Source of the DNA: Spirosoma lacussanchae
Lineage (GTDB): Bacteria > Bacteroidota > Bacteroidia > Cytophagales > Spirosomataceae
Assembly (NCBI RefSeq): GCF_005870035.1
Contig: NZ_SWJG01000001.1
Span: 1,351,639-1,415,638 of the forward strand
Reading direction: 5' to 3'
DNA: 64,000 nt
Shown: positions 5,160 to 20,208 of the stretch, piece by piece
Layout: each line of letters opens with the position of its first letter
Position numbering within the stretch: the stretch's first letter is position 1
Notes under the pieces: generated by a model
The model's database searches: none
What the model was told of the DNA's origin: nothing
What the model saw: the letters and a program-made list of their open reading frames with translations, nothing else
Made by a program: the position numbers and the translations under genes

Positions 5160-8100
5160 ATCCTAATTCCACTCAGGTACGATTAGAAGGTGGTGGTATT
5201 ACCTGCCGCAGGTAGGGTTCACATTATTTCAATTCCACTCAGGTACGATTAGAAGGTGAGCACGTAACCGATAGCCGATTTGATGGTGTCAAATTTCAAT
5301 TCCACTCAGGTACGATTAGAAGGGCCCATATCAGCCCTACTGATATACGATTCGCTGATTTCAATTCCACTCAGGTACGATTAGAAGGGTTTACCGACAA
5401 TGATTTATCGGTTTTATTCTTGATTTCAATTCCACTCAGGTACGATTAGAAGGGCTGAGGTGTGGATTTATTGTGTGCCTTGTTTACAGATTTCAATTCC
5501 ACTCAGGTACGATTAGAAGCGCAGGTCGGTCCCGTTCTTCCGCAGAAACAGACAGTATTTCAATTCCACTCAGGTACGATTAGAAGAACTACAGGAGCAA
5601 AACGAGCGGCTGCAAAGTGGTAATTTCAATTCCACTCAGGTACGATTAGAAGGCATATGTCGGGCCTGGCCATCGACATCGACTGCGAATTTCAATTCCA
5701 CTCAGGTACGATTAGAAGTGCAGCTGGCGCCCTTCAGTACAGGGTCGGTGATCATTTCAATTCCACTCAGGTACGATTAGAAGAACGGCGGCAAGGCTGA
5801 ACGCAGGGAAAGGCTGAATTTCAATTCCACTCAGGTACGATTAGAAGCCGAACTCGCGGCCCGTATCGCGCTGGTTGTTGAGATTTCAATTCCACTCAGG
5901 TACGATTAGAAGTATCGCGCACATCGTCGGCTAAGTCAGTCAGTACGTATTTCAATTCCACTCAGGTACGATTAGAAGCGCTGATGCAGCTACTGTTTGG
6001 CCGCTATGCCATATTTCAATTCCACTCAGGTACGATTAGAAGCGGAACCGCTGACACCCTGCGCCGGGCGCGTGCGGCATTTCAATTCCACTCAGGTACG
6101 ATTAGAAGCCGTCTGCTGGCCCATAATCAGCCCTGTTTCTGTGAATTTCAATTCCACTCAGGTACGATTAGAAGCATTAGAGGATTGCGTCTAGGAAGTC
6201 GAGGTTTACTATTTCAATTCCACTCAGGTACGATTAGAAGCGAGCTGCTGGCCGCGTTGCCGGTTAGTTTGCCGGAATTTCAATTCCACTCAGGTACGAT
6301 TAGAAGCATCCGCGAACGTGTTCACCGTTACGCGGCTGGTCATTTCAATTCCACTCAGGTACGATTAGAAGGCCGGACAGGTTATTAATAGCCCGAACGA
6401 ACGTTGTCATTTCAATTCCACTCAGGTACGATTAGAAGCAGGTTTTCCGTCAATCGGCCATACGCGATCACGTATTTCAATTCCACTCAGGTACGATTAG
6501 AAGACAAACCGAAGCTATGGCCCGGGCCGAAGTCGACATTTCAATTCCACTCAGGTACGATTAGAAGCCGGTTACCGAAGCCATGGCCCGGGCCGAAGTC
6601 GACATTTCAATTCCACTCAGGTACGATTAGAAGGATACGCTGAACCGGTTTCGAAACAAAGGCTACAATTTCAATTCCACTCAGGTACGATTAGAAGCGA
6701 GTCGGTACACCAGATGGTCGATGATTTTAAAACATTTCAATTCCACTCAGGTACGATTAGAAGGGTAATCTTGACAGGCACGAGCTAGCCGGGCCAGCCA
6801 ATTTCAATTCCACTCAGGTACGATTAGAAGTCAACACCTTCGCGTACTGTTCCTGCGCAAATGCATTTCAATTCCACTCAGGTACGATTAGAAGCCATCC
6901 TCCAGATTGTAGCGAACGTGGGTGTGTTATTTCAATTCCACTCAGGTACGATTAGAAGTCTTTCGCCCTACCTGTGTCAAGCCGGATTTGCCAATTTCAA
7001 TTCCACTCAGGTACGATTAGAAGGGGTAGGCCGATGGCGTCGCACTGCTCTTTCAGGAAATTTCAATTCCACTCAGGTACGATTAGAAGAGCGGTTGCAG
7101 GACAAAATCAGGGCGCTCGAAAAAATTTCAATTCCACTCAGGTACGATTAGAAGAGACTGGCGAACCCACCCCAACCGTTCCAGCCATTATTTCAATTCC
7201 ACTCAGGTACGATTAGAAGATCGTCTGGCGCTACCTCATCGACCCCGCAGCTTAGATTTCAATTCCACTCAGGTACGATTAGAAGTATCCGACACGATAG
7301 CCGCTATTGATTCATCCCGTTATTTCAATTCCACTCAGGTACGATTAGAAGACAAAGACCTTAGCACAGCCGTATCTAGCTACTTTATTTCAATTCCACT
7401 CAGGTACGATTAGAAGCGCTGTTCCGCTTCGAGTAGAGCCAACCGGCGTTATTTCAATTCCACTCAGGTACGATTAGAAGTTACTTTGGGGCCGTCGGGG
7501 ATGCGCTCCTGCAGCACATTTCAATTCCACTCAGGTACGATTAGAAGAAGGGACCGCCGACAGCCTGCGCCGGGCGCGCACGGCATTTCAATTCCACTCA
7601 GGTACGATTAGAAGTGGTGCGGTAGAGGTTGATCATTTTACGGTGGGTAATTTCAATTCCACTCAGGTACGATTAGAAGCCAGACCTCGCGCCGTTGATG
7701 CCTGTTGCTCGATGACATTTCAATTCCACTCAGGTACGATTAGAAGCCCGGACGGCATGGAGTAGCTACTTGCATTCAGGCGAATTTCAATTCCACTCAG
7801 GTACGATTAGAAGCCTTGCCCAGAACCACGAGCCGGAGTGTCGTACACTCGATTTCAATTCCACTCAGGTACGATTAGAAGTCGCGCAGCCCGCCCGTTA
7901 CGCGGTAGGCTACTGTCCATTTCAATTCCACTCAGGTACGATTAGAAGGGCGGATTCATTGCTACCCATTCGCAGGCGTCACAATTTCAATTCCACTCAG
8001 GTACGATTAGAAGACGGCTTTGATTGTTTCGCGTTGGGCATGGGTCTTGATTTCAATTCCACTCAGGTACGATTAGAAGTTTGCAATTCGGCGGGAATAA

Positions 8101-10325
8101 TGTCACGAAAAAAAATTTCAATTCCACTCAGGTACGATTAGAAGGTATCGGTTTATAGCCTGGCTCGTCCCTGAGCGTGAATTTCAATTCCACTCAGGTA
8201 CGATTAGAAGATCTCGGGAGATTCATTCCAATCCCGCCCCAAACTATTATTTCAATTCCACTCAGGTACGATTAGAAGCGCTAAGGTCTGCACTAAGCGC
8301 AAGCCAGCACGACGCATTTCAATTCCACTCAGGTACGATTAGAAGTTTGGCGACGCTTTTATGCTAACAGCCGCCGACCTGATTTCAATTCCACTCAGGT
8401 ACGATTAGAAGGCCTACCAGCAGGGCAGGGGAGGAACAAGCAACTGGATTTCAATTCCACTCAGGTACGATTAGAAGGTCGTGGCCAATTTACTAGCTAC
8501 TGCGCTGTTGACATTTCAATTCCACTCAGGTACGATTAGAAGGTAGTCGCGAGGTAGGTCCATGACCTCGCGCTTCGTCATTTCAATTCCACTCAGGTAC
8601 GATTAGAAGGGCGTTCATTCGTAGCGGTAATAATCCGGTCACCCAATTTCAATTCCACTCAGGTACGATTAGAAGTGGGGATAGGTTGGAGGTCGCGCAT
8701 GAGCGCAATCCATTTCAATTCCACTCAGGTACGATTAGAAGTCTGTGCTCATCAGGTAGGGCAGGCGAACCGCATCATCATTTCAATTCCACTCAGGTAC
8801 GATTAGAAGTGTTACGTGTGGTTAGCGACTAGGATTAATTCGATAATTTCAATTCCACTCAGGTACGATTAGAAGGCTGATATAGACCACTGGCTCAAAC
8901 GGGATGTCTGAATTTCAATTCCACTCAGGTACGATTAGAAGATACGCGTCCGGGTAGTCCTGACAGGCACGGGCCAACATTTCAATTCCACTCAGGTACG
9001 ATTAGAAGCCATTTGCCGCAGCAGATTTCGGGCTTAGTGAACGGATTTCAATTCCACTCAGGTACGATTAGAAGGGTGCGTAAGAATCCGGTTTAACTAC
9101 TCGCAGAATATATTTCAATTCCACTCAGGTACGATTAGAAGCCAGCCCGCACCCTCATGCACATAGACGTTCATGGCATTTCAATTCCACTCAGGTACGA
9201 TTAGAAGCCTAGTCCAGCGAAATCGGATGAACTAGGCAACGATTTCAATTCCACTCAGGTACGATTAGAAGCCAGGACCCGTTTGTACTGGCTGTCTTCA
9301 AGTCCATATTTCAATTCCACTCAGGTACGATTAGAAGCCCTGCAATACCTGATTGATTTGGCTGATGCGTATTATTTCAATTCCACTCAGGTACGATTAG
9401 AAGCTCGGGGCAGAATCGAAACTGGCTCAGGTTGTTCACGATTTCAATTCCACTCAGGTACGATTAGAAGCCTAAATACGACTTCTCACTCTCAACCCGC
9501 ACCCATTTCAATTCCACTCAGGTACGATTAGAAGATAACGTCAGCAATGACAACCATAGTGGGGACTTCGATTTCAATTCCACTCAGGTACGATTAGAAG
9601 CTGTCAGGGTCTTTAAGATTCTTTTTAATAATACGAATTTCAATTCCACTCAGGTACGATTAGAAGGCATCGAGCTACATTAACGGCGACGTAATTTCCA
9701 AATTTCAATTCCACTCAGGTACGATTAGAAGCAGGTCGGTCCCGACGATGCCCAATAGTTTACCCTCATTTCAATTCCACTCAGGTACGATTAGAAGACC
9801 AGTAGCAAAAGCAGGGCAATAGCTAGTTGTTTCATATTTCAATTCCACTCAGGTACGATTAGAAGTCGTTTAGAGGGTGTCGCATCTCACGCCATTGAGC
9901 TAATTTCAATTCCACTCAGGTACGATTAGAAGTCAGGTTCCGCACCTGTTGCCAGATGCCCGTTGGCTATTTCAATTCCACTCAGGTACGATTAGAAGGG
10001 CATCAGCCGGGACGGTATGGCTATACGCAGCGCCATTTCAATTCCACTCAGGTACGATTAGAAGAACGCAAGCCAGGACGACGCCGGACGCCGGTTATGC
10101 ATTTCAATTCCACTCAGGTACGATTAGAAGTCGACCCCTCATCTGATAACCTGCTGATAGTAGACATTTCAATTCCACTCAGGTACGATTAGAAGTGCCA
10201 GCCCCTTGCGCGTGGCAGTGCTGGACTTTAATTTCAATTCCACTCAGGTACGATTAGAAGCCCGGCCGGAAACTCGACGGGCTTGCCAGTCGCTAATTTC
10301 AATTCCACTCAGGTACGATTAGAAG
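5160..10325 (-). CRISPR. CRISPR array, type I-B class repeat, 79 repeats and 78 spacers
   Basis: Counting by eye gives 79 copies of a 30-base repeat, starting ATTTCAATTCC and ending CGATTAGAAG on the plus strand, with spacers of 34-38 bases. All internal copies look identical. The left-most copy (5160-5189) differs at three bases (5162-5164), as expected of the oldest, trailer-end repeat. On the minus strand the repeat ends ATTGAAAT, matching the 8-base crRNA handle of type I-B systems. I therefore infer transcription right to left, with the leader beside cas2. Several spacer pairs are related to each other (6504-6537 with 6568-6603; 6043-6078 with 7548-7584; 6764-6800 with 8942-8978; 8279-8315 with 10065-10100). 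The many apparent ORFs through the array, reading FNSTQVRLE or QFHSGTIRS, are translations of the repeat and not genes. Confidence 0.99.
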
Positions 10326-10347
10326 CCGTGAAATTATCACGAAAAAA

Positions 10348-10372
10348 GTGCCTTCAGGCTGTCCAAAGGCAC
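10348..10372 (-). terminator. Terminator-shaped hairpin inside the CRISPR leader
   Basis: Inverted repeat GTGCCTT (10348-10354) and AAGGCAC (10366-10372) with an 11-base loop. On the minus strand it runs directly into TTTTTT (10347-10342), 16 bases before the first repeat. This is an odd place for a terminator if the array is read from the leader. It may instead attenuate array transcription, block read-through from the cas operon, or serve integration. Confidence 0.6.
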
Positions 10373-10390
10373 GCTGACAATTAATTTTTT

Positions 10391-10442
10391 GGCCTAAAAA
10401 TCGTCGATCGCCATTACTACGAAAAAGTCCGGCGATCGACGA
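10391..10442 (-). terminator. Terminator of the cas operon
   Basis: Perfect 12-bp stem, TCGTCGATCGCC at 10401-10412 paired with 10431-10442, 18-base loop. On the minus strand it is followed by TTTTT (10400-10396). It lies about 100 bases beyond the cas2 stop codon and is best read as the rho-independent end of the cas transcript. Confidence 0.75.
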
Positions 10443-10538
10443 CGGTTCAGTATCAGGCTTTTATAGCCAAACGGTGCATTATTGCTTGTCTTTACAGCAT
10501 GTCAAAGAACAATTCTGGCCAGACCGACGACATTCTCC

Positions 10539-10802
10539 TTACAAAAAGTTATCCGTCGACTGCCGTTCTACACCCACGATTTCCTTGTCGAGCCACTTCT
10601 GATCCCGGTTTTTGAACAGAATCAGGCTATCCTCGTCTTCGCGCATAATCCGCCGGGCTTCATAAAGCAGTTCTTTTAGCTGTACCTCCGTCATTTCACC
10701 CTCGAAAACAGAATTCTGTATCCAGTTCAAATACCGCCGACAGAGCTTCAGCATTTTGCCGACCCGCTTCTGCCCCATGTCATACACCAGAATCACGTAC
10801 AT
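10539..10802 (-). CDS. cas2: Cas2, CRISPR adaptation protein
   Basis: Cas2 bridges two Cas1 dimers to form the integrase that inserts new spacers at the leader end. The product from the ATG at 10802 has 87 residues and starts MYVILVYDMG, the first ferredoxin-like strand with the conserved Asp. It continues with RRYLNWIQNSVFEGEMTEVQ and SLILFK. An in-frame ATG 18 codons further upstream (10856) would add residues unlike the family, so the later start is preferred. It is the last gene of the cas operon, 95 bases after cas1. That gap contains GATTGAGTG-type repeats also seen near 60.3 kb. Confidence 0.96.
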   Translation of the reverse strand: MYVILVYDMGQKRVGKMLKLCRRYLNWIQNSVFEGEMTEVQLKELLYEARRIMREDEDSLILFKNRDQKWLDKEIVGVERQSTDNFL

Positions 10803-10897
10803 GTTTTTATGGAGTGATTGAGTGGATAAGCGATTGAGTGAAAAGCTGCGCAACAAGTACGCACGCCATCACGCATTCGCTCATTCAAAAAATTAAC
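10803..10897. repeat. Intergenic GATTGAGTG-type repeat between cas1 and cas2
   Basis: The gap contains two near-tandem copies of GATTGAGTG (GTGATTGAGTGG and GCGATTGAGTGAA) followed about 40 bases later by a partly inverted copy, CGCTCATTCAA. The same words in the same arrangement occur at 60263-60347, between unrelated genes. This looks like a dispersed intergenic palindrome rather than part of the CRISPR system; it could fold between cas1 and cas2 in the mRNA. Confidence 0.5.
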
Positions 10898-11905
10898 TTA
10901 CCACCAGGCCTTGAATGGTTTGTACTCCTCGATCCCCAGCAAATGCTTCTGAAGCTTGTAACACTCCAGCTTAATCAGGTGTCGATAACTCACGCTCCGA
11001 CCCAGGGCCCGGTGTTTGATCGTTTCTTTCAGCGCTGCGTCGAACTCCTCCAGAAACCGCTTCCGGGCCGCTTCTTTCATGACGCAGCCGCCCACCTCGG
11101 CCCGAAAGTCTGACGCCTGGAGCTGCCGCTTGTTCACCATACGGAAAATGAGCCGGTCAACCAGAATTGGTTTGAAAATCTCGGCCATGTCCAGCGCCAG
11201 CGAATACCGGCGCGCGCCCGGCTCGTGCAGAAAGCTAATGGTCGGGTTCAGCTGTGTATGATAAATCATGCTCAGACAGGCGGTGTAGCAGAGCATATTG
11301 CCAAATGAAATCAGCGCGTTCAACTCGTTTTGGGGTGGGCGTTTGCTGCGACCATCCAGACAGAATGTTTCCCCCACAATGGCATCGAAGCAGCTATAAT
11401 ATGTCTGGCGAATGTTGCCTTCAATACCCATCAGCGTCGGTACGTCCGGGGCGGTCGGTACGCTTGCCAGCAGCTGCTCTACCGTGGTAACGGCCGCTTC
11501 CAGGTCTTTCTGCCGATTGTTGTAGTACTTCAACACCCGCAAAATGTTGCAGGCTGCCCCTTCTACAAACGTTCGGGCAATGGCGATCCGCTTTTTGGGC
11601 GACAAATAATAGCGGGTTTGCTCGACCTGCATTTTGCCCGCCAGCAGATACTCCCTCGGCATAAACGAACCGGTATAATGCTCGTAATAGTCGAAGAAGT
11701 GAACGGCGATGCCTTCCTTGCCCAGAAAGTTATAAAGGGCCGAGTTGGCGTCCAGACTGCCGAAGACATACAGGTCCGACACCTGCTCAACGGGCAGAAA
11801 GCGCGGCTGTCCTTCCTGGCCGGCTTCGTCTACCGGCGTAAACTTCAGCGTGTTGTCCTGCCGACTCATGCGGCCAGCGTTGAAGAGGTATTTGGTTTGT
11901 TTCAT
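10898..11905 (-). CDS. cas1: Cas1, CRISPR spacer integrase (type I-B)
   Basis: Cas1 is the metal-dependent integrase that, with Cas2, inserts spacers into the array. The 335-residue product has the N-terminal beta domain (RFLPVEQVSDLYVFGSLDANSALYNFLGKEGIAVHFFDYYEHYTGSFMPRE) and the helical catalytic domain. The usual acidic and histidine ligands appear as MGIEGNIRQTYY (Glu), FLHEPGARRYSLALDMAEIFKPILVDRLIF (His, then Asp and Glu). The C-terminal CYKLQKHLLGIEEYKPFKAWW is typical of Cas1b proteins. Length and motifs are complete. It lies between the kinase-like gene (48-base gap) and cas2. Confidence 0.97.
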   Translation of the reverse strand: MKQTKYLFNAGRMSRQDNTLKFTPVDEAGQEGQPRFLPVEQVSDLYVFGSLDANSALYNFLGKEGIAVHFFDYYEHYTGSFMPREYLLAGKMQVEQTRYYLSPKKRIAIARTFVEGAACNILRVLKYYNNRQKDLEAAVTTVEQLLASVPTAPDVPTLMGIEGNIRQTYYSCFDAIVGETFCLDGRSKRPPQNELNALISFGNMLCYTACLSMIYHTQLNPTISFLHEPGARRYSLALDMAEIFKPILVDRLIFRMVNKRQLQASDFRAEVGGCVMKEAARKRFLEEFDAALKETIKHRALGRSVSYRHLIKLECYKLQKHLLGIEEYKPFKAWW

Positions 11906-11953
11906 AAAGTTGATGTAGCGAAGAGGCAGAGACGAATACTGTTTTACGCGGCC

Positions 11954-12487
11954 TTATCCGTTCAAAAAATAATTCCGAAACTGTACCAGTTCGGTTTGTT
12001 CAACGTCCAGATATCTGGCAAAAATCCGCTCGCCTACCTGCTCTTTCAAGGCCGATATGCCTACATCGATCAGCCGTAGGCCGTGTTCGGTGAGCAGAAT
12101 ATTATCAAACGCCAGGCCGCCCAGATCAGAAAGCCCGGGCCGACGTCTCGGCTTTAAATCTTGATGAACAAACCCCGCCTGATGTAAGGCCGTCAAATCA
12201 TCGGCAAACACATCATACCATAATTCCCAACGTTCAATTTCGTAAGCCCGGTAGTCAAACGGACGAATACGCTCCATGACCAGCATTTCGGCCTGTAGTT
12301 CTTCACTATAATCGAGTCGGATAAACCTGACCACCAAATCATTAATTGTGTTGGCGAACTTCATCTTTTCGGCTTCTGAACCAATATCGGAGCGCGTATC
12401 ACTCGTAAAGAGCTTAGCTACTTCGGTTTCCGATACAGCAATGACCGCGTTGTTTGCACCAGCCGACAGTTGACGAGGATATTTCAT
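11954..12487 (-). CDS. Protein-kinase-fold protein embedded in the cas operon
   Basis: A 177-residue protein with a compact protein-kinase-like layout. It shows a candidate ATP lysine (VAKLF, Lys25), helix-C acid (GSEAEK, Glu38 or Glu40), a hinge-like EMLVMERI (67-74), catalytic loop HQDLKP (108-113), the loop Asn in FDNILL (129) and a DFG-like DVG (141-143). The glycine-rich loop is reduced to AGANNAV. An insert of about 15 residues separates HQDLKP from the Asn, unlike the HRDxxxxN spacing of standard kinases. I believe similar short kinase-like proteins occur elsewhere in Cytophagales genomes, but I know of no standard type I-B gene like this. It lies between cas4 (63-base gap) and cas1 (48-base gap), on the same strand. 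A role in adaptation, or plain passenger status, are both open. Confidence 0.75.
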   Translation of the reverse strand: MKYPRQLSAGANNAVIAVSETEVAKLFTSDTRSDIGSEAEKMKFANTINDLVVRFIRLDYSEELQAEMLVMERIRPFDYRAYEIERWELWYDVFADDLTALHQAGFVHQDLKPRRRPGLSDLGGLAFDNILLTEHGLRLIDVGISALKEQVGERIFARYLDVEQTELVQFRNYFLNG

Positions 12488-12550
12488 ACTGGGTAGAGAA
12501 CAGAACGAACAGCTGGGCGGTGGCTATTGCTCCGCTTCGGCTGTCCGATT

Positions 12551-13066
12551 TTATTGACTGGATTCTTCGACATAGCAGAAATCAAAGTAACTGCACGCCC
12601 GGCATTTCGATTTGCTGATCCGACCCGGACACTGCTCACTATCCACGATCCGTTCAATATCTCGAATCCACTCTTCCACTACCGGGATATCCTCGGCTTC
12701 GAGCCGGACGGTCTGTGTCTGCCGCGGCTTGGGGTACTCGATCAATCCGGTTGCTCCGTCGATGCCATTTTTACGGAGCAGATAAAGATAAAACTGTACC
12801 TGGGCTACGTGCGAATGCTCCAGCTTGTCCGACTTCTTGATCTCATGTACCACTTTGTCATACGGGTCGTAGAAATCGATCTTAGAGCCATCAATCGTGA
12901 TTTCGCGGTATCGTTCGGCGCGTTGGGGGTAGGCGTGTTCGTGAAGCTGTTTTCCTTCGGTCACCGCTTCGGACGTGTGTTCCATACGGATTTGGTGCGC
13001 GTGCAGCCACATCTTCCGGTGGCATAGGTGGTAATAGTTGATAAGAGTTGCGTTGGCGTGAGCCAT
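12551..13066 (-). CDS. cas4: Cas4, RecB-like nuclease with iron-sulfur cluster
   Basis: Cas4 trims and orients pre-spacers so that they are integrated with the right PAM-side end. The 171-residue product has the RecB-type nuclease core: GKQLHEHAY, DGSKIDFYDPYDK (metal Asp), HEIKKSDKLE (Glu-x-Lys), and VAQVQFYLYLL (Gln motif). The iron-sulfur cysteines are Cys15 in YYHLCHRKMW and the C-terminal group in CPGRISKSKCRACSYFDFC. All expected ligands are present. It starts 5 bases after cas3 ends, so it is translated with the interference genes. Confidence 0.96.
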   Translation of the reverse strand: MAHANATLINYYHLCHRKMWLHAHQIRMEHTSEAVTEGKQLHEHAYPQRAERYREITIDGSKIDFYDPYDKVVHEIKKSDKLEHSHVAQVQFYLYLLRKNGIDGATGLIEYPKPRQTQTVRLEAEDIPVVEEWIRDIERIVDSEQCPGRISKSKCRACSYFDFCYVEESSQ

Positions 13067-13071
13067 AGATT

Positions 13072-15348
13072 CTACAGGAAATGGAAATCAGGTGAACGCT
13101 CTATTCGTTGATAACCAACTCCTTTAGTATACTCAAGATTAGTTGCCACCAGCGTATTCTGCTTGTCTTCCAATTTGATTTGATGCTCTTTAGGGCACTC
13201 CCACGGATAAGCCTGCACCAAAAGCTGGCTGGCTTCAATGTACTTACCTTCCTTCCTTTTAGCTTCGAATTCAGACCTTAGATTTTCGCACAGAATATCA
13301 ATCTTTAGATTAGTCTTATCAATAACGTCCTCAACCCAATCTGCCCAATCACCCGCATGAAATGTGCTTTCAAAATTGACGATACGTTCGTGATTAAAAC
13401 CAATTTGGAAATTTCGCTCTTGTTCTTCGGTATAGCCCTTTTCATAGACTTCATCGCAGGCATCGACCAAATGTTGCTCAGATAGCTCTTGTCCATCCAG
13501 TTTCAACAGAACACGCCATGTTTCATCTACGATAGCTTGGTCGTATATCCGTTTAGTATTGCCAATGCTAAGTTCAAAAAGGTATATTTCGGATGGTTTT
13601 TTACGCTTGCCAGCTCGGTTGACTCGGCCAAATCGTTGAATTAGCGCGTCAATCGGAGCATTCTCAATAAACGCAACATCATAATCAATATCTAAACTAA
13701 CCTCTACGGCCTGTGTAGCAATTAATAATCGAGGACGCTCCTTTCTGTCGTCTGCAGTAATACTCTTTTCAATCTCTTTACGGTCTTTGCGATGAAATCC
13801 ACCGTGCAATAGTTTGGGATTAAATTTATCAAAGGTTTGACTCAGTTTCTGACAAGTACTAACGTTGTTGACAATAATCAGTACAGTTTTCTTTCCTTCC
13901 TCTAGTATCTGTGTAATCTGCTCAGTTGAATCAATAACTGTTTTCTTAGGTTGGCAAATCAATTTATGGCGAATACGTTTTAATATATCTGCATCGGCTG
14001 GATTACCTGGATTTGGGCGAAGAATTCTCGATGTATCACCATCAAACAGTTCATTGACAATTCGATCAAGTAGAAACTTGGGAATGGTTGCCGACATCAA
14101 CAGAATTTTAGCGTTGCAAAACCGCTTAAGCCACTTTAGCGTTGCCAGCATCATCCCTGTTAGGTGTGCATCGTACGTATGGAATTCGTCAATGATAAAC
14201 AGTGCGTTTTGGTAGTCGAATAGACTCATATCCCATCCTTTACCATGTAGCGCATGTTTCAATACCTGATGCAACGTAGCAACTTTGACAGGATAGAATA
14301 ATTCACGGGAAGCAGACCGTTTATTTCGAGCAATCTCTTCGCTTTGTTGAAAATTGTTCGTTTCATTGATTGCTTCCTCATAGAAAAAATCAAGGGCTTT
14401 GCTGTGAAGAGCTGTTACACGTTCTTTCCCATAAACGCCCTTAAGTCTACGTACCATAGCATTGATACTGGCAGTATACGGCAACAAGTAAAACAGTCTG
14501 GCATTTTCCGTCTGATTGGCATACACCCAACTTAATGCTGCTTCCGTTTTCCCCGAACCCGTTGGCGCGTGTAAAATAACGTCGCCTATATAACGCTGCA
14601 TCCGCTCCTGAAATGGTCGAAAAGGTACTCGAACGATTTTGTTTTTGTTGTTTAGGGTAGTGGGGTAAAAATCTGTCAACTCAAGTCGTTTCCATACTGG
14701 CAAATCGCTTTCTGTCTTTGCAGAACCGATATGATCAGCAGCCATCAGCAATCCACGCATACGAGCTAGTTGTAACCTATCTGTCGGCTGTGATTGCTGC
14801 TTATCATTCATTAGAAGAAATTGAATTTCATCCGAATAGGCGTCTTTAGGAGAAACATTATTTGTTATTGGTGAAACATCGTTGAAAAGCGTACCCCATG
14901 CCTTAACGATCTCTTCAGCATTCTTTACCAATTCAGGGTCGTCGGATAGATGACAGGCTAAATCAGCTCCTATCTCGTAAAGAGAAAGTTTCTTGAAACC
15001 ATCTGAAACGATCCCTTTGTGATGCGTAGCAATGGCAAATAATTCGTCAATAGGAAGATTCAAGAACTGCTCACAAAACCAAAGTGAGATGAGTTCGTGG
15101 CGAATACTTACAACCGTTGTTCCCTTTTTCAGATTCGCTTGAAAGCTCTTGTGCAATTTGCCGATGTCATGCCATACAGCACAACGAATAGCTTTTTTTA
15201 GCCACTTGTTACGCTCGTCTTCAGTAAAAGGCAACCGGTTAACTAATTCAATGCCCGCTCGAACTACCCGTCGCGTATGTTCCTCAAGCGTCATGCAGAG
15301 GGCAAACGTTAGGTCATCACTTTTGGCTTTGTAAACGCTGAAATCCAT
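13072..15348 (-). CDS. cas3: Cas3, HD nuclease-helicase
   Basis: Cas3 is recruited by Cascade to the R-loop and unwinds and degrades the invading DNA. The 758-residue protein carries an N-terminal HD nuclease (His24; His60-Asp61 in AVWHDIGKLHKSF; further His in ATHHKG). A superfamily-2 helicase follows: Walker A APTGSGKTEAAL at about 261-272, DEFHTYD for motif II, MSATIP for motif III, ATQAVEVSLDIDYD and QRFGRVNRAGK for motifs V and VI. All catalytic motifs look intact. It sits 6 bases after cas5 and 5 bases before cas4. Base composition from here to cas8 is clearly more A/T-rich than the surrounding chromosome. Confidence 0.96.
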   Translation of the reverse strand: MDFSVYKAKSDDLTFALCMTLEEHTRRVVRAGIELVNRLPFTEDERNKWLKKAIRCAVWHDIGKLHKSFQANLKKGTTVVSIRHELISLWFCEQFLNLPIDELFAIATHHKGIVSDGFKKLSLYEIGADLACHLSDDPELVKNAEEIVKAWGTLFNDVSPITNNVSPKDAYSDEIQFLLMNDKQQSQPTDRLQLARMRGLLMAADHIGSAKTESDLPVWKRLELTDFYPTTLNNKNKIVRVPFRPFQERMQRYIGDVILHAPTGSGKTEAALSWVYANQTENARLFYLLPYTASINAMVRRLKGVYGKERVTALHSKALDFFYEEAINETNNFQQSEEIARNKRSASRELFYPVKVATLHQVLKHALHGKGWDMSLFDYQNALFIIDEFHTYDAHLTGMMLATLKWLKRFCNAKILLMSATIPKFLLDRIVNELFDGDTSRILRPNPGNPADADILKRIRHKLICQPKKTVIDSTEQITQILEEGKKTVLIIVNNVSTCQKLSQTFDKFNPKLLHGGFHRKDRKEIEKSITADDRKERPRLLIATQAVEVSLDIDYDVAFIENAPIDALIQRFGRVNRAGKRKKPSEIYLFELSIGNTKRIYDQAIVDETWRVLLKLDGQELSEQHLVDACDEVYEKGYTEEQERNFQIGFNHERIVNFESTFHAGDWADWVEDVIDKTNLKIDILCENLRSEFEAKRKEGKYIEASQLLVQAYPWECPKEHQIKLEDKQNTLVATNLEYTKGVGYQRIERSPDFHFL

Positions 15349-15354
15349 TTTAAA

Positions 15355-16059
15355 TCATTGCCAGTTGTGTAGATAGAAACTTTTGCCTTCGTTGGTTCTG
15401 AACAGATTACCGATTGATATTTCTTGACCAGTACCTGCTGCCAGATTAATGAAAACACGCGGATTGATCGGCTTTCGACCTGCCCCCACTCGCGTGTATT
15501 CTTCGTAAGCGTCGGCTAGTTGCACTAGCTGCCCGGCCACCTGCATACCTGGTGTAAATGGTAAAGCGCATCCACTAATTTTTGCCTGCGTAACAGCCTC
15601 AACTGCGACAACTCGAACCGATTCAAATCGGATTCGTAGTAAGTCCTGTGAGCGTCCCAATGCAGGTGTTCCAACTGGATAGCGGAAATAATCAATCCAA
15701 TCTGTGCGATTTAGCCAGAGAGTCAAACAAGGTTGAAGATCTCCCGTCGAGTCAGTTGCCGCTACTACATGAAACTCCCGCTTGTATGCATCCGTCCCTT
15801 TGGCGTGTGGCTTTACGTTACGGCCATCAAACTCTAACCGCTGGCGGGTTTCTAAGTCATTAGCTTCTGTTACGTATTGATAATGAAATCCAAACTGTAC
15901 TTCATCATGTGTTACAATACGTCCCAAACAGCAACCGATCAACCCCAATAGCGACGAGTAAGAAGGTACCGTCATGCAAAGCGCATTTCCTGAAAGGACA
16001 AATGGCAAACGTGGGGTTGCTGTCCATCCATCAAATTGAACTTCCAGCACTTCATTCAT
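15355..16059 (-). CDS. cas5: Cas5, Cascade subunit
   Basis: Cas5 caps the 5' handle of the crRNA in Cascade. The 234-residue product begins MNEVLEVQFDGWTATPRLPF, the usual first RAMP strand. It goes on to PSYSSLLGLIGCCLGRIVTHDEVQFGFHYQYV, the typical helix that packs on the crRNA handle. Its start overlaps the end of cas7 by 8 bases, so the two are probably translationally coupled. No Cas6-like catalytic role is expected since a separate cas6 exists. Subtype looks like the Cas5 of the Cst1/Cst2 branch of type I-B, from order and partners. Confidence 0.9.
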   Translation of the reverse strand: MNEVLEVQFDGWTATPRLPFVLSGNALCMTVPSYSSLLGLIGCCLGRIVTHDEVQFGFHYQYVTEANDLETRQRLEFDGRNVKPHAKGTDAYKREFHVVAATDSTGDLQPCLTLWLNRTDWIDYFRYPVGTPALGRSQDLLRIRFESVRVVAVEAVTQAKISGCALPFTPGMQVAGQLVQLADAYEEYTRVGAGRKPINPRVFINLAAGTGQEISIGNLFRTNEGKSFYLHNWQ

Positions 16060-17149
16060 TGGATGTTGTAGTCAAGTGAGCTTTTATAAAATCCTGAGCA
16101 ACGCTTACAGGCGAGCCAACAACAATCGTGGAATTGTTTGAGAGAGCTTTAACCTCAGCTTCATTCTGTAGATACCCTTCCCGTATACCAATATAGACGG
16201 GTGTTGCCAGTTTGTTTTGGTAATCGTCAATGATCTGTTTCAGAGCGTTTATTTTCAAAGAAGGCATTTCGCCAGAACCCTCAAACAGATTATTAAAGAC
16301 TGGATTTGCACATTCAAGTCCAGCCAAAATCAACACTTTGGGGCTTACATCTGCACCGAATGCAGCTTGCTTTGCGCCACCCCGTAAAAAAGCCAAGCCA
16401 CGTAGCAAACCAGCCGCACGCTCTTTGCGTGAATGTTCCGCATTTTGTAGCGTGAAGCGTTTGAATGTTCCTTTTGCACCTAAAGGTTTATAGGTTAACT
16501 GATCTGCATATTGCTTAACCGTCTCAGAGGCCAATTCCTGTTTACTACCCAAGTTGTCAAATTGCCCAAGCCGGTAGTATTCGAGATTGAAGAATCCCTC
16601 AAGATGAGCCGCATAAAATTGCGTTGAGTACGGCAATGGTGTATTTTCTTTGAGATGCACAAAACCCTCATCAACGTTTAACGTCCGCTTACCACGAATA
16701 CCCTTTAAGACAGAGCATTTAAACGGCGATGTCCGCTGAACACTTTCCGCTTTAGTTTTTGCAGGTGCTTCATCTTCATCCTCTTCATCACCCGCTCCTG
16801 ATTTATCATTTCCCCCACTACGCATATAGCCGAATAAATCATCTTCCGGAAAAGCAATTGGATCAAGCTGTGTAGAAATTTTATTAGTGGTTCCTTTTTT
16901 TGAAACGCCGATCGCCTGCAATTCGCTGGGTGTCCAGTTATTTTCCTCATTTGAAGTGTTTCGGAGCCATCTTCTCCATGCCTGAGCCGACACGTAAGGC
17001 ACTTTTTCACGGCGGCCATTCACCATTTCTTCAAATACTTTTGGGACTACTTTGTTGCGGTCTTCGCCTGCGCCTAAACCTGCCCCATTTAAAAAAGCGG
17101 CCGTACCATCGATGACCAACGCACCGGTAATGTTGTTAAGAGTTGCCAT
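16052..17149 (-). CDS. cas7: Cas7 (Cst2/DevR-like), Cascade backbone subunit
   Basis: Cas7 polymerises along the crRNA spacer to form the Cascade backbone. The 365-residue product has the opening ITGALVIDGTAAFLNGAGLGAGEDRNKV and the strongly conserved YVSAQAWRRWLR (about 52-63) of the Cst2/DevR group. A low-complexity acidic stretch (about residues 111-136, including DEEDEDEAPAKTKAE) lies between FGYMRS and the next conserved block RTSPFKCSVLKG. It may be a disordered loop in the thumb region. It starts 1 base after the cas8 stop and overlaps cas5 by 8 bases. Confidence 0.93.
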   Translation of the reverse strand: MATLNNITGALVIDGTAAFLNGAGLGAGEDRNKVVPKVFEEMVNGRREKVPYVSAQAWRRWLRNTSNEENNWTPSELQAIGVSKKGTTNKISTQLDPIAFPEDDLFGYMRSGGNDKSGAGDEEDEDEAPAKTKAESVQRTSPFKCSVLKGIRGKRTLNVDEGFVHLKENTPLPYSTQFYAAHLEGFFNLEYYRLGQFDNLGSKQELASETVKQYADQLTYKPLGAKGTFKRFTLQNAEHSRKERAAGLLRGLAFLRGGAKQAAFGADVSPKVLILAGLECANPVFNNLFEGSGEMPSLKINALKQIIDDYQNKLATPVYIGIREGYLQNEAEVKALSNNSTIVVGSPVSVAQDFIKAHLTTTSNE

Positions 17150-17150
17150 A

Positions 17151-19145
17151 CTAAACTGTTGTTAAAGAAAGCAATGATTGATGATAGAATTGATTTAAAA
17201 GGTACTCAATAGCAAATCGGGTAAACGATGGGTTGTATTTGCCCATATAGTCGTACAAAAGTTTTTCAGGAGGAATCGAGGGGGCAAACGGTTGTTCCAG
17301 CTCCTTTTCCAGCTCAGTCATACTTTCACTAACGGAATCTATCCATTGAGCAATTTGAAAGCTTTCCCGACGCATAGGAACCAGCACATGCTGACGAAAT
17401 TTTTCTTCATCCAATCTTCCTTTATTCCGTCCATCACGATAGTAATGGATGTATTCGTCGACGAATTGTCGGAAGTTTTTAATGTAATAACTCTGCTCAA
17501 CGCTGGGCTTAGGAAGCAGCTCTGTCGGTTGAAATACTAACCGAGGGGTCGGCTCATTGCGGTAATAGTTTAGATATATCCGCAGAATATCCCGCAGCCC
17601 ATAAGCGTTTTGGCGATTTTCTGAGTCGAACAATAATGAATAAACTGTTTCAAACTCATATAACCGGCTGCTTTCTCGAATTAATAAGGGTAACGGATTG
17701 CCTTCTTGATAACGGGTTCCTAACCAACGACTGCTGTAGCTACGCTTGTCTTCACCCATCAAATGAAAGAACAGATTAATCGACTGACCGATAGGCGAGC
17801 TTGCTATATCTGGAACAGGAGGCATTGTTACGTCGTCATCAGCAGACAGCGTTAGATAATAGAAATGCACCATCCGATACATACGACTAATGGTACCGTC
17901 TACAGGAATTCTTTCAGGATTATTGAGAACTGAAATATGATGCGCCCAATGCCATTCTTTGCGACTTGCTGCTCCTACCATAGATTCAAAAACCATACTT
18001 TTGTACAGGGCATAATCGCTGTTAGGAGCGTCCGATTTTTCTAAAAACTTATATTGAGCTTTACTCCACTCCCCTTTACCCAACAGATGAGCGATGTATT
18101 TGGCATATTCTAACTTATCCTCATTTCCGACAAGACGTTGGTATTCTTCATAGAATCGAATAGAAACGCCATCTGAATTTTTGTTGGGGTAAAGCCCATA
18201 GAAGTCAATATTCCCCTCAAGGCATTCCAGGAAGTCTGACTGAATTTTTGGATTCTTTAGAATCCCTTCCAGCGTTGGCCGTAGCGAAGGATTTCTGTAC
18301 AGCTTGAGCAGCTTAACGATTAGTTGGTTTGGGATGCGGTCAATTTCACAACTCGCTCCGGTACCTGAATTGGTAAAACTCCAAAGATTAATAGCAGTAG
18401 TTTTATCGGCTTGTTCTTTAAAAGCGACAATATCTAAAATGTCAAGAATGTAATTTCCTTTTGAAAAGTCTTTTACATTATCTACTACCGCGTTAGCAGA
18501 TACGGTTCCTATTTTATCTTTAATATGGGCGGCATATTTAGCTATCAGTATTCTCGATAATTCATAATTAGATGAGTCAACTAGCAGAATACCACCTTTA
18601 TAAAGCACCGCAGACAAGGGCAGGAACTGCATAATAGCCAAACAAATAGGGTGAACGGTAAGCGCATATTTGGCTTGTGGTAATGCCTGTGCGTCAGAGC
18701 CTAACCCACCCAACAACGGAAACCAACAACGATTGACGGTTTTATCTTTGCCGTTAATCTTGCTGACTGGATAGCCTACCTTACGGAGCGTCTGTTCATA
18801 GAAAGCATCAAACGTTGTTTTGAACTTCAAGCCCGACAACTCGCAAGTATATGGACCCTCGCCCTCCACATTTTCTAGAATACCAGAAATGAGTTGGTTG
18901 TAGATGGCTTCGCCAAACTCCTTATCGTTGAATAGCGGCCCATTTTTAGAGAAGAGCATCGTATAGCTCTTGAGTCGCTTATTCAAACGTATGAGTGTAT
19001 GTAAACCATCACTGTACGGATTCCTGAATAGTTTAAGCAATGTATCGGCATCAACTGTACTAATATGTTGATTAGTTAGGGCTTCGATGGTTTGTAGCGC
19101 GTTATTGAGCATAGCGCTGCCTGTGTAATCCTTAAATATTGTCAT
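17151..19145 (-). CDS. cas8b: Cas8 (Cst1/Cas8b-like), large Cascade subunit
   Basis: Cas8 is the large Cascade subunit that reads the PAM and recruits Cas3. The 664-residue protein is recognised mainly by size and place: first of the cas8-cas7-cas5-cas3 run, one base before cas7. Its N terminus, DYTGSAMLNNALQTIEAL, fits the opening I associate with Cst1 proteins. The segment CELSGLKFKTT...RCWFPLLGG may be a remnant of the zinc-binding site seen in that group. Large subunits diverge fast, so the subtype label is the least certain part. Composition is A/T-rich like cas3, cas5 and cas7. Confidence 0.85.
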   Translation of the reverse strand: MTIFKDYTGSAMLNNALQTIEALTNQHISTVDADTLLKLFRNPYSDGLHTLIRLNKRLKSYTMLFSKNGPLFNDKEFGEAIYNQLISGILENVEGEGPYTCELSGLKFKTTFDAFYEQTLRKVGYPVSKINGKDKTVNRCWFPLLGGLGSDAQALPQAKYALTVHPICLAIMQFLPLSAVLYKGGILLVDSSNYELSRILIAKYAAHIKDKIGTVSANAVVDNVKDFSKGNYILDILDIVAFKEQADKTTAINLWSFTNSGTGASCEIDRIPNQLIVKLLKLYRNPSLRPTLEGILKNPKIQSDFLECLEGNIDFYGLYPNKNSDGVSIRFYEEYQRLVGNEDKLEYAKYIAHLLGKGEWSKAQYKFLEKSDAPNSDYALYKSMVFESMVGAASRKEWHWAHHISVLNNPERIPVDGTISRMYRMVHFYYLTLSADDDVTMPPVPDIASSPIGQSINLFFHLMGEDKRSYSSRWLGTRYQEGNPLPLLIRESSRLYEFETVYSLLFDSENRQNAYGLRDILRIYLNYYRNEPTPRLVFQPTELLPKPSVEQSYYIKNFRQFVDEYIHYYRDGRNKGRLDEEKFRQHVLVPMRRESFQIAQWIDSVSESMTELEKELEQPFAPSIPPEKLLYDYMGKYNPSFTRFAIEYLLNQFYHQSLLSLTTV

Positions 19146-19199: not shown

Positions 19200-19382
19200 A
19201 TGGCATCGACAATTAAAAAAACGGAGCGGAAACTGCCACCTAATCACCCCCTTAGCCGTAAGTTTGACACAGCCGAAGAAGGGGCAAAGGCAAAAGCCGA
19301 TTATGTGATGAATACAGTTTTGAAGGATTTCGACTGGAATGCCTTCATGGCGACGAAACAAAATCAGACACCCCAGAAGTAG
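19200..19382 (+). CDS. Small ORF on the opposite strand between cas8 and cas6
   Basis: A 60-codon ORF (starts MASTIKKTERKLPPNHPLSR, ends MATKQNQTPQK) that runs against the cas operon in the only large gap within it (19146-19344) and overlaps the 3' end of cas6 by 38 bases. The product is charged, with an NHPLSRKFDTAEEGAKAKADYVMN centre, and reads like a real small protein rather than a shadow; the opposing frame is poorer. I do not recognise the family. It has no strong ribosome-binding site, which is common in this phylum. It could be a cargo gene, a small regulator, or non-coding. Confidence 0.5.
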   Translation: MASTIKKTERKLPPNHPLSRKFDTAEEGAKAKADYVMNTVLKDFDWNAFMATKQNQTPQK

Positions 19383-20208
19383 GTTTGGTTTCTGTAAGTC
19401 CCACACACCCGAATCCTTCCGCGTTATACCGCCCTACACCGGCCAGTACGGCCATTTCCAGCAATTCCTTGGGGCCGTTTAGCTCGAACTGGAAGCCGTA
19501 GTAGCCGCGCACTTTGGTTTCTTCTCGCGCACCTTCTTTAATCGTGACTAATCTTGATTTGGGCTGGGCCGCTTGCCGCCCCGGATTGGGCAGCAGTCGG
19601 TAGGTGAGCGGAGCCGGTTCCGGTTCGTAATCCGTCAGGTCGCCTGTCGATAGAGCCGCTTGTACGCTGGCATGCTTAGCCAGTAGATTCGACACCAGCA
19701 GGGGGCCAAACTGCTCGTCGGCCGGGTGGAGGTACTGATCCATGCCCCGCTCATCTTTTTCCGCAATCACTACCGGCGAAAGCGTCCGTAACCGAACCGT
19801 ATCGCTTGTTATCTCCACCGGTACGGCCTCTACCCGCTCAATGATAAACTCAGCCCGGTGCCGGGGCGTGGCAATCACACAGCGCTGGTCCTGAAACAGC
19901 CCTATGATAAAATCCTGAGCGGCTTTGTCGACGTAGAAGCTAACGATCCACTCGATATGGGGTGAGTTGACCCACATACCGCCCGCGCGTACGTCCAGGC
20001 GGGCATTGGGCATGATCAGGTCCGAAAAGGTGAACAGCTTGAATCGTCGGGTACTCGAATACGTATATCCCTGGTTGTGCAGAAAATGCGCATACTGCTC
20101 ATCGGCTTCGGCCAGTACGGCGTAGATGAACGCACTGAGCCGATATGCGTAATTGAACGGAACCAGGGTTTGCCGGGCAGTAGGGCGGAGAACGAGTCGA
20201 AACTGCAT
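19345..20208 (-). CDS. cas6: Cas6, pre-crRNA endoribonuclease
   Basis: Cas6 cuts the long array transcript within each repeat, leaving the 8-base 5' handle. The 287-residue protein has tandem ferredoxin-like RAMP folds. YAYRLSAFIYAVLAEADEQYAHFLHNQGY near residues 20-48 contains the usual catalytic-histidine region (His44 in LHNQGY is a candidate). The C-terminal glycine-rich loop is AGVGRYNAEGFGCVGL. Length is normal. It is the first gene of the cas operon, 199 bases before cas8, and divergent from the WYL regulator. Its composition is G/C-rich like the host, unlike cas8-cas3. Confidence 0.94.
   Translation of the reverse strand: MQFRLVLRPTARQTLVPFNYAYRLSAFIYAVLAEADEQYAHFLHNQGYTYSSTRRFKLFTFSDLIMPNARLDVRAGGMWVNSPHIEWIVSFYVDKAAQDFIIGLFQDQRCVIATPRHRAEFIIERVEAVPVEITSDTVRLRTLSPVVIAEKDERGMDQYLHPADEQFGPLLVSNLLAKHASVQAALSTGDLTDYEPEPAPLTYRLLPNPGRQAAQPKSRLVTIKEGAREETKVRGYYGFQFELNGPKELLEMAVLAGVGRYNAEGFGCVGLTETKPTSGVSDFVSSP

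Follow-up and report, generated by a model that had tools for sequence, protein, structure and literature searches.

Genes from outside the cas set have been tied to CRISPR adaptation modules before, and the matching passages of the survey by Altae-Tran et al. 2023 (PMC10910872) name RNaseH, DNA polymerases and transmembrane proteins in this role. Kinases near CRISPR loci also appear in those passages, but only alongside vWA systems, and none is named there for adaptation modules. The gene described here, kin, resembles the surveyed genes in being an unrelated gene tied to a cas adaptation module, and differs from them in that its product is kinase-like.

In the window, by which we mean the whole 64,000-nucleotide stretch of Spirosoma lacussanchae DNA that was analysed, kin lies in a complete type I-B operon of the order cas6-cas8b-cas7b-cas5b-cas3-cas4-kin-cas1-cas2, followed by a long CRISPR array:

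5164..10340 (ends approximate), no strand assigned: CRISPR array, in which a crude scan gave a run of 79 evenly spaced seed repeats
10539..10856, minus strand: cas2, open reading frame as listed; the Cas2 match starts at residue 19, giving a coding part of about 10539-10802
10898..11905, minus strand: cas1 (Cas1b), TIGR03641 at 442.6 bits against a cut-off of 304.1
11954..12487, minus strand: kin, ATG-start open reading frame for a compact kinase-like protein of 177 aa, probably a cargo gene of the cas4-cas1 gap
11950..12680, minus strand: patch of raised identity to genome G009, by identity per 60-nt bin, covering the 3′ part of cas4 and kin
12551..13066, minus strand: cas4 (Cas4b), Pfam Cas_Cas4 at 2.9e-48 and PADLOC Cas4b at 2.8e-64
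13072..15348, minus strand: cas3 (Cas3b), PADLOC Cas3b at 3.7e-218
15355..16059, minus strand: cas5b, PADLOC Cas5b at 1.6e-77
16052..17149, minus strand: cas7b, PADLOC Cas7b at 3.7e-35
17151..19145, minus strand: cas8b, PADLOC Cas8b at 5.7e-178
19345..20208, minus strand: cas6, PADLOC Cas6b at 4.2e-72

A first, sequence-only reading had placed the gene between cas4 and cas1 of a type I-B operon, on the same strand and with short gaps, and this is borne out: kin is 63 nt from upstream cas4 and 48 nt from downstream cas1, and cas6, cas8b, cas7b, cas5b, cas3, cas4b, cas1b and cas2b were all verified around it. No Rfam match was found in 10300-13200 of the window. The same reading had offered three roles for the protein, namely phosphorylation of Cas1, Cas2 or Cas4, modification of a nucleotide, or a passenger's existence; the last is the best supported by the comparisons below and the others less so. 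We put at roughly 70% the probability that kin codes for a compact phosphotransferase of kinase fold, probably active and with a job outside CRISPR, and that the gene is carried as exchangeable cargo in the I-B adaptation cassette.

The kinase residues K25, H108-Q109-D110, N129 and D141-V142-G143 are all present in the intact 177-aa open reading frame. Among 95 distinct kin sequences, K25 (91/91), E38 (91/91), N129 (93/93) and D141 (94/94) are invariant in the aligned rows with a residue there, as is Gly143 where present. The Gln of HQD is found in the window copy only, the position being Arg in 86 of the 92 aligned rows with a residue there, and the catalytic Asp of the HRD motif is kept in the window and in 86/92 rows, replaced otherwise by Glu, Ser or Tyr (once each) or His (three times). 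The six members without this Asp (Ser in Rhabdobacter L009/L050, Glu in L005/L028, His in Runella L037, L052 and L080, Tyr in L053) still keep Lys25, Asn129 and Asp141. Measured against the canonical HRDLKPxN spacing, the catalytic loop of the family is about 9 residues longer; the insert that had been remarked on before the Asn is therefore real but mostly a family trait, and only a further 5-residue insertion sets the window protein and its nearest relative apart. This insertion is in frame at 12120-12165 of the window (kin codons ~110-122), is shared by the window and G009, and in the window sits, by eye, in a small inverted repeat, AAAGCC...GGGCTTT. Other Arg-containing insertions, of 5 to 6 residues, are seen in the kin genes of L011 and L016. 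L021 (G020) and L024 (G004) represent a divergent paralogue: identity is 36-40%, F-N-D replaces H-R-D and the catalytic loop is longer.

When one genome per species was scanned, 114 relatives turned up; the best 80 share 60-95% identity with the window protein. The gene is present in 23 of 99 related genomes and in 54 of the 390 genomes of an order sample, and the phylum, where given on the kin tree, is Bacteroidota, plus one Ignavibacteriota; the tree holds 87 of the 95 distinct proteins, with L041 cut to its last 171 residues and the fragments L020, L022, L023, L035, L083, L090, L092 and L101 left off. Five genomes of the order sample gave two kin matches, which in three are pieces of a broken or split copy, and in 11 of the 54 kin genomes every copy is partial or interrupted, in some cases at the end of a contig. 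Mean column identity is 74% in a full-length alignment of 53 members (the window protein and 52 of the 80 best-relative loci), and dN/dS is 0.02-0.15 in 9 of 15 hand-picked pairs, dS being saturated in the other 6; on this family-wide full-length conservation and low dN/dS a chance open reading frame was rejected. No model of the family's own was found in Pfam, NCBIfam or PADLOC, and no kin copies in the plasmid, phage and viral contig collections searched. Among the matches listed, the titles and abstract starts of the open-licence PMC literature did not contain the kin family, in a scope that also covered GxxExxY and genes inserted in I-B operons.

Profile similarity of kin to kinases is weak. 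The window protein scores 15.7 bits (E 0.01) against Pfam Pkinase (PF00069), below the gathering cut-off of 31.7 bits; at E up to 0.1, 49 of the 53 members match, the best at 1.3e-4. NCBIfam gives weak PrkT and Bud32 matches, and PDB sequence searches gave nothing significant (best E 0.43 and 0.063). The AlphaFold model (pLDDT 83.9, pTM 0.59) shows the strands of the N-lobe, helix C, a long helix preceding the catalytic loop, the catalytic strands and one long terminal helix. After DVG it consists of a short helix (148-151) and a long helix (153-176) and then ends, short of a full C-lobe. The best PDB matches of the model in Foldseek are CK2 kinases (E 2.5e-5, probability 1.00, query TM-score only ~0.3). 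The possibility that the fold would turn out not to be that of a kinase was thus not borne out by AlphaFold and Foldseek. Alignment and predicted structure together point to a compact kinase-like protein that lacks the activation segment and lower C-lobe, is probably active and has a longer catalytic loop, and that would act by phosphate transfer.

Among described kinases, the eukaryotic-type family (PF00069) shares with kin a VAIK-type Lys, helix-C Glu, H-x-D, Asn and D-x-G in this order, and the predicted kin fold matches CK2 and other kinases. Kin differs in being only 177 aa long, in ending about 35 residues past DVG with one long helix, in lacking the activation segment/APE and helices F-I, and in its extended loop. 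Bud32/KEOPS (TIGR03724) is likewise small and gives a weak match of 20.6 bits, but this is far under the 125-bit cut-off and the kin catalytic loop is longer. Likeness to the RIO/APH-like small kinases extends, at E up to 0.1, to APH matches in 15 and RIO1 matches in 2 of the 53 members. The PD-T4-6 defence kinases of PADLOC are stand-alone kinase genes, as kin is a stand-alone gene, and their profiles are weakly similar to it, with a best E of 2e-6 in the family; however, the window protein reaches only 0.0036 (15 bits, residues 92-114 only), and the four models that match it are 292-415 positions long compared with 177 aa.

This last similarity raises the question of whether kin is a single-gene anti-phage kinase of the abortive-infection type, placed by selection beside another defence system. 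With E up to 0.1 allowed, 52 of the 53 members resemble PD-T4-6 (2.1e-6 for the best), the occurrence of kin is patchy (54/390), and 56 PADLOC profiles were hit near stand-alone kin genes compared with 15 beyond 7 kb, a count of profiles rather than proteins in two sets of 94 proteins, each hand-picked from random draws of 110 (from 205 near and 190 far genes). The larger number of profiles near kin makes a defence role possible. However, the PD-T4-6 scores seem to reflect a general likeness to kinases, and the neighbours of stand-alone kin are mixed, with many metabolic and housekeeping families; no shared functional partner was found in this diverse set. We consider a dedicated anti-phage kinase unlikely.

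How kin relates to CRISPR is seen best from its genomic neighbourhoods. Cas neighbours of 105 fetched kin loci (several fetched twice) were sought by tblastn with the window's nine proteins (I-B Cas), and kin was found beside I-B cas genes at 9 distinct places, a count that may miss distant cas types, since the queries came from the window only, and some cas links, since L001-L025 reach only about 1.5 kb past kin in either direction and short contigs are common among the MAGs. The kin gene of L018 was not recovered by the ORF caller, and of all 105 loci only L026 and L027 showed arrays in a crude repeat scan. Kin occupies the cas4-cas1 interval in the window and four other genomes of the genus (G009, G032, G004 and, as a remnant, G030), and the cas3-cas4 interval in Arsenicibacter (L027), Rhabdobacter (L009/L050), genome G045 (L012) and one Saprospiraceae MAG (L084), four lineages in which the kin stop is only 3-6 nt ahead of the cas4 start. 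All 9 places have kin on the same strand, in the cas3/cas4/cas1 stretch, and the cas label changes at least four times on the kin tree, gains and losses together. The two operon positions make more than one entry into cas operons likely, and the recurrent placement and 3-6 nt spacing, being more than random placement would give, are hardly due to chance. The homologue count proposed with the sequence-only reading thus has a double outcome: the relatives are mostly away from CRISPR loci, which that reading had held against itself, yet the window is not the sole insertion, linkage being found in a minority of members but in several lineages and at two positions. Among the 390 genomes of the order sample, 54 have kin, 76 have cas1b, 15 have both and 4 have them adjacent. 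Kin does not clearly follow cas1b, occurring in 15/76 genomes with it compared with 39/314 without (p 0.14), or, leaving out the four adjacent cases, in 11/72 compared with 39/314 (p 0.56). An exclusive CRISPR gene was rejected for kin on its location mostly away from cas genes and its poor co-occurrence with cas1b.

Within the genus, 20 cas1b genes exceed the cut-off and 13 are close relatives of the window's. Comparison of these related I-B loci at the same place, a check suggested from the start, shows that the contents of the cas4-cas1 gap vary: intact kin in four (window, G009, G032, G004), a kin remnant in one (G030), a GxxExxY gene in five (G034, G003, G029, G027, G012) and no gene, over 26-69 nt, in three (G023, G018, G022). 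The G034 GxxExxY copy matches Pfam PDDEXK_3, and the other four are 75-86% identical to it. In the "empty" gap of G018 (L111, ~1420-1489) we noted by eye a gene-less inverted repeat, GAAAGAGCGAAA ... TTTCGCTCTTT, like a cargo-less flank. Trees of Cas1 and Cas4 were built with Arsenicibacter and a Fibrella locus included; on them the kin label changes 5 times compared with shuffled means of 3.9 and 3.8, and is thus unclustered. Three pairs of sisters on the Cas1 tree differ in gap content: G004 with kin and G027 with GxxExxY (99/96), G030 with the remnant and G003 with GxxExxY (98/98), and G032 with kin and G034 with GxxExxY (92/84). Only G004/G027 recurs on the Cas4 tree. The DNA of this pair is 95.8% identical in cas4, 93.9% in cas1 and 95.8% in cas2, whereas the 1 kb before cas4 is just 45% alike; the cas genes of the other two pairs are more distant, at 72-89%. 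Similar cas4, cas1 and cas2 behind unlike upstream DNA indicates that the adaptation cassette is not tied to one effector module but combines with different ones. The window and G009 show the same: their cas4, kin, cas1 and cas2 proteins are 83-100% identical, and cas3, cas5 and cas7 only 28-40%.

The window and G009 also differ from gene to gene in divergence, with dS of 0.059 for kin, 0.40 for cas1 and 0.88 for cas4. Identity per 60-nt bin is 95-100% over the 3′ part of cas4 and kin, and 87-100%, mostly ~91%, over cas1, consistent with a recent local exchange of the 11950..12680 patch. Kin has a w of 0.47 between these genomes, with about 11 nonsynonymous and 7 synonymous changes, and is not distinct from neutral (p 0.17); cas1 has a w of 0.036.

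These comparisons bear on the idea that kin is an accessory regulator of adaptation, repeatedly co-opted from a genomic pool, that phosphorylates Cas1, Cas2 or Cas4, or else a prespacer or nucleotide. The repeated changes of the cas label on the kin tree, the common strand and stretch of all 9 cas-adjacent copies and the tight spacing to cas4 in four lineages are the chief evidence for such a regulator. However, close cassettes do without kin or have GxxExxY instead, the family is mostly unlinked, the constraint on window kin relative to G009 is weak beside that on cas1, and kin is found without cas genes in S. validum. On balance we regard a regulatory role in adaptation as quite unlikely.

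Cargo in this gap is not confined to kin or to the genus. We fetched 80 cas1b loci, made up of 76 of 83 order-sample places (leaving out the window's own, G017, G341, two of G023, and one each of G273 and G030) and four loci from the genus cas1b scan (L212-L215) that were added on purpose, all four with an insert. The cas4-cas1 gap is enlarged (more than 300 nt or an extra open reading frame) in 20 of the 77 loci with both genes, 18 of them with a same-strand gene; enlarged cas1-cas2 gaps number 3/78, and labelled effector gaps 1/41. Relative to the effector gaps, Fisher p values are 0.0009 for 20/77 and 0.003 for 18/77, to be read with the non-independence of the loci and with effector gaps labelled in only 41 pairs and judged by the open-reading-frame criterion only. 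Without the four purposely added loci, 16/73 gaps are enlarged and 14/73 have a same-strand gene (p 0.01). The automatic count for the cas3-cas4 interval (37/69) was left unused because many loci have effector genes there. In the enlarged gaps of L189 and L192 no same-strand gene was recognised that lies entirely within the gap, the gap gene of L196 is a 177-aa open reading frame that starts inside cas4 and is four-helix-bundle-like by eye, and the gap of L177, which holds a kin remnant, is 298 nt long and falls outside the 20.

By Pfam, the extra gap genes include PRiA4_ORF3, 23S-IVP four-helix-bundle (PF05635), AAA_14/DUF4143 and GxxExxY (PF13366) families; others resemble what we take to be REP-associated transposases and DUF559 and DUF1016 proteins, and one REP-associated-transposase-like protein has no Pfam match at E 0.01. 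The GxxExxY, 23S-IVP, PRiA4_ORF3 and AAA_14 genes fill the same I-B operon gaps as kin but belong to Pfam families distinct from it. The five genus GxxExxY copies differ further in having, by eye, AACAGGATT-type repeats in both flanks, whereas kin flanks have none above control. In the gaps of L173, L186, L213, L214 and L215 the GxxExxY flanks carry inverted arrays of the short AACAGGATT-type repeat, which suggests a palindromic-repeat-based mobile unit. Elsewhere in these operons, L159, L164 and L184 have a conserved 475-aa protein before cas4, and L184 also has a 121-aa open reading frame resembling the start of that protein. The variety of gap genes can also be read as a regulatory dock in Bacteroidota I-B operons, at which swappable small enzymes of a mobile cassette would each tune spacer capture, kin by phosphorylating Cas1, Cas2, Cas4 or the prespacer. 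If so, a kinase, a PD-(D/E)XK protein, a four-helix-bundle protein and an ATPase would be interchangeable, and we find this very unlikely.

Kin persists without a cas system in S. validum (G008, L028). There an intact kin gene, with Glu replacing the HRD Asp, lies between folA and another gene, and a Cas1b model found no match in the genome at E 0.001. On one side, 56 nt correspond to the end of cas4 (87.5% identical); on the other, 51 nt correspond to the start of cas1 (78%), with the start codon lost and a stop inside. In G031 only some 115 nt, without kin, separate the same two flanking genes; in the other 28 of the 29 genus loci examined, the second flanking gene is not within the available 1.5 kb. 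Either kin moved together with bits of cas flank or the cas locus was lost around it. A transposon-like unit with flanking repeats was rejected for kin: no inverted or tandem repeats beyond control were found in its flanks, and the best ungapped inverted-repeat score averages 8.46 for kin and 8.35 for control (83 and 224 pairs, 200-nt flanks). L096 has a 33-nt inverted repeat with a score of 27; one control scores 28. Decay of window kin into an inactive relic of an ordinary kinase, to which its HQD, 5-residue insertion, w of 0.47 and the 11 of 54 genomes with only partial or interrupted copies might point, is the least likely reading, given the intact open reading frame and the retention of K25, E38, D110, N129 and D141.

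Relatives that are mostly elsewhere and sister gaps that hold an unrelated gene or nothing make kin most likely a passenger, and its existence without cas genes in S. validum agrees with this. The cas4-cas1-cas2 half of these I-B operons tolerates single-gene insertions and behaves as a cassette found with different effector modules, and its cas4-cas1 gap is filled alternately by kin, GxxExxY, other small genes or nothing. Cargo would be exchanged by recombination in the flanking cas sequence, and the substrate of kin would be a general cellular one. Several observations weigh against a passenger: the cas link recurs, with kin 3-6 nt from cas4 in the four cas3-cas4 lineages; S. validum could represent a whole cas locus decayed in place; just one of the three mixed-cargo sister pairs is ~95% identical; and the PADLOC enrichment near stand-alone kin leans toward a defence role.

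A kinase that controls CRISPR adaptation is a tempting reading of this locus, and it is now replaced by a testable evolutionary picture. The kin family is compact, with an extended catalytic loop and an invariant active site, and is small enough for quick biochemistry. The new point is the exchangeable-cargo behavior of the I-B adaptation cassette: in its inner gap single genes would land and be swapped. Searches for new CRISPR genes that rely on guilt by association would turn up cargo of this kind as false positives.
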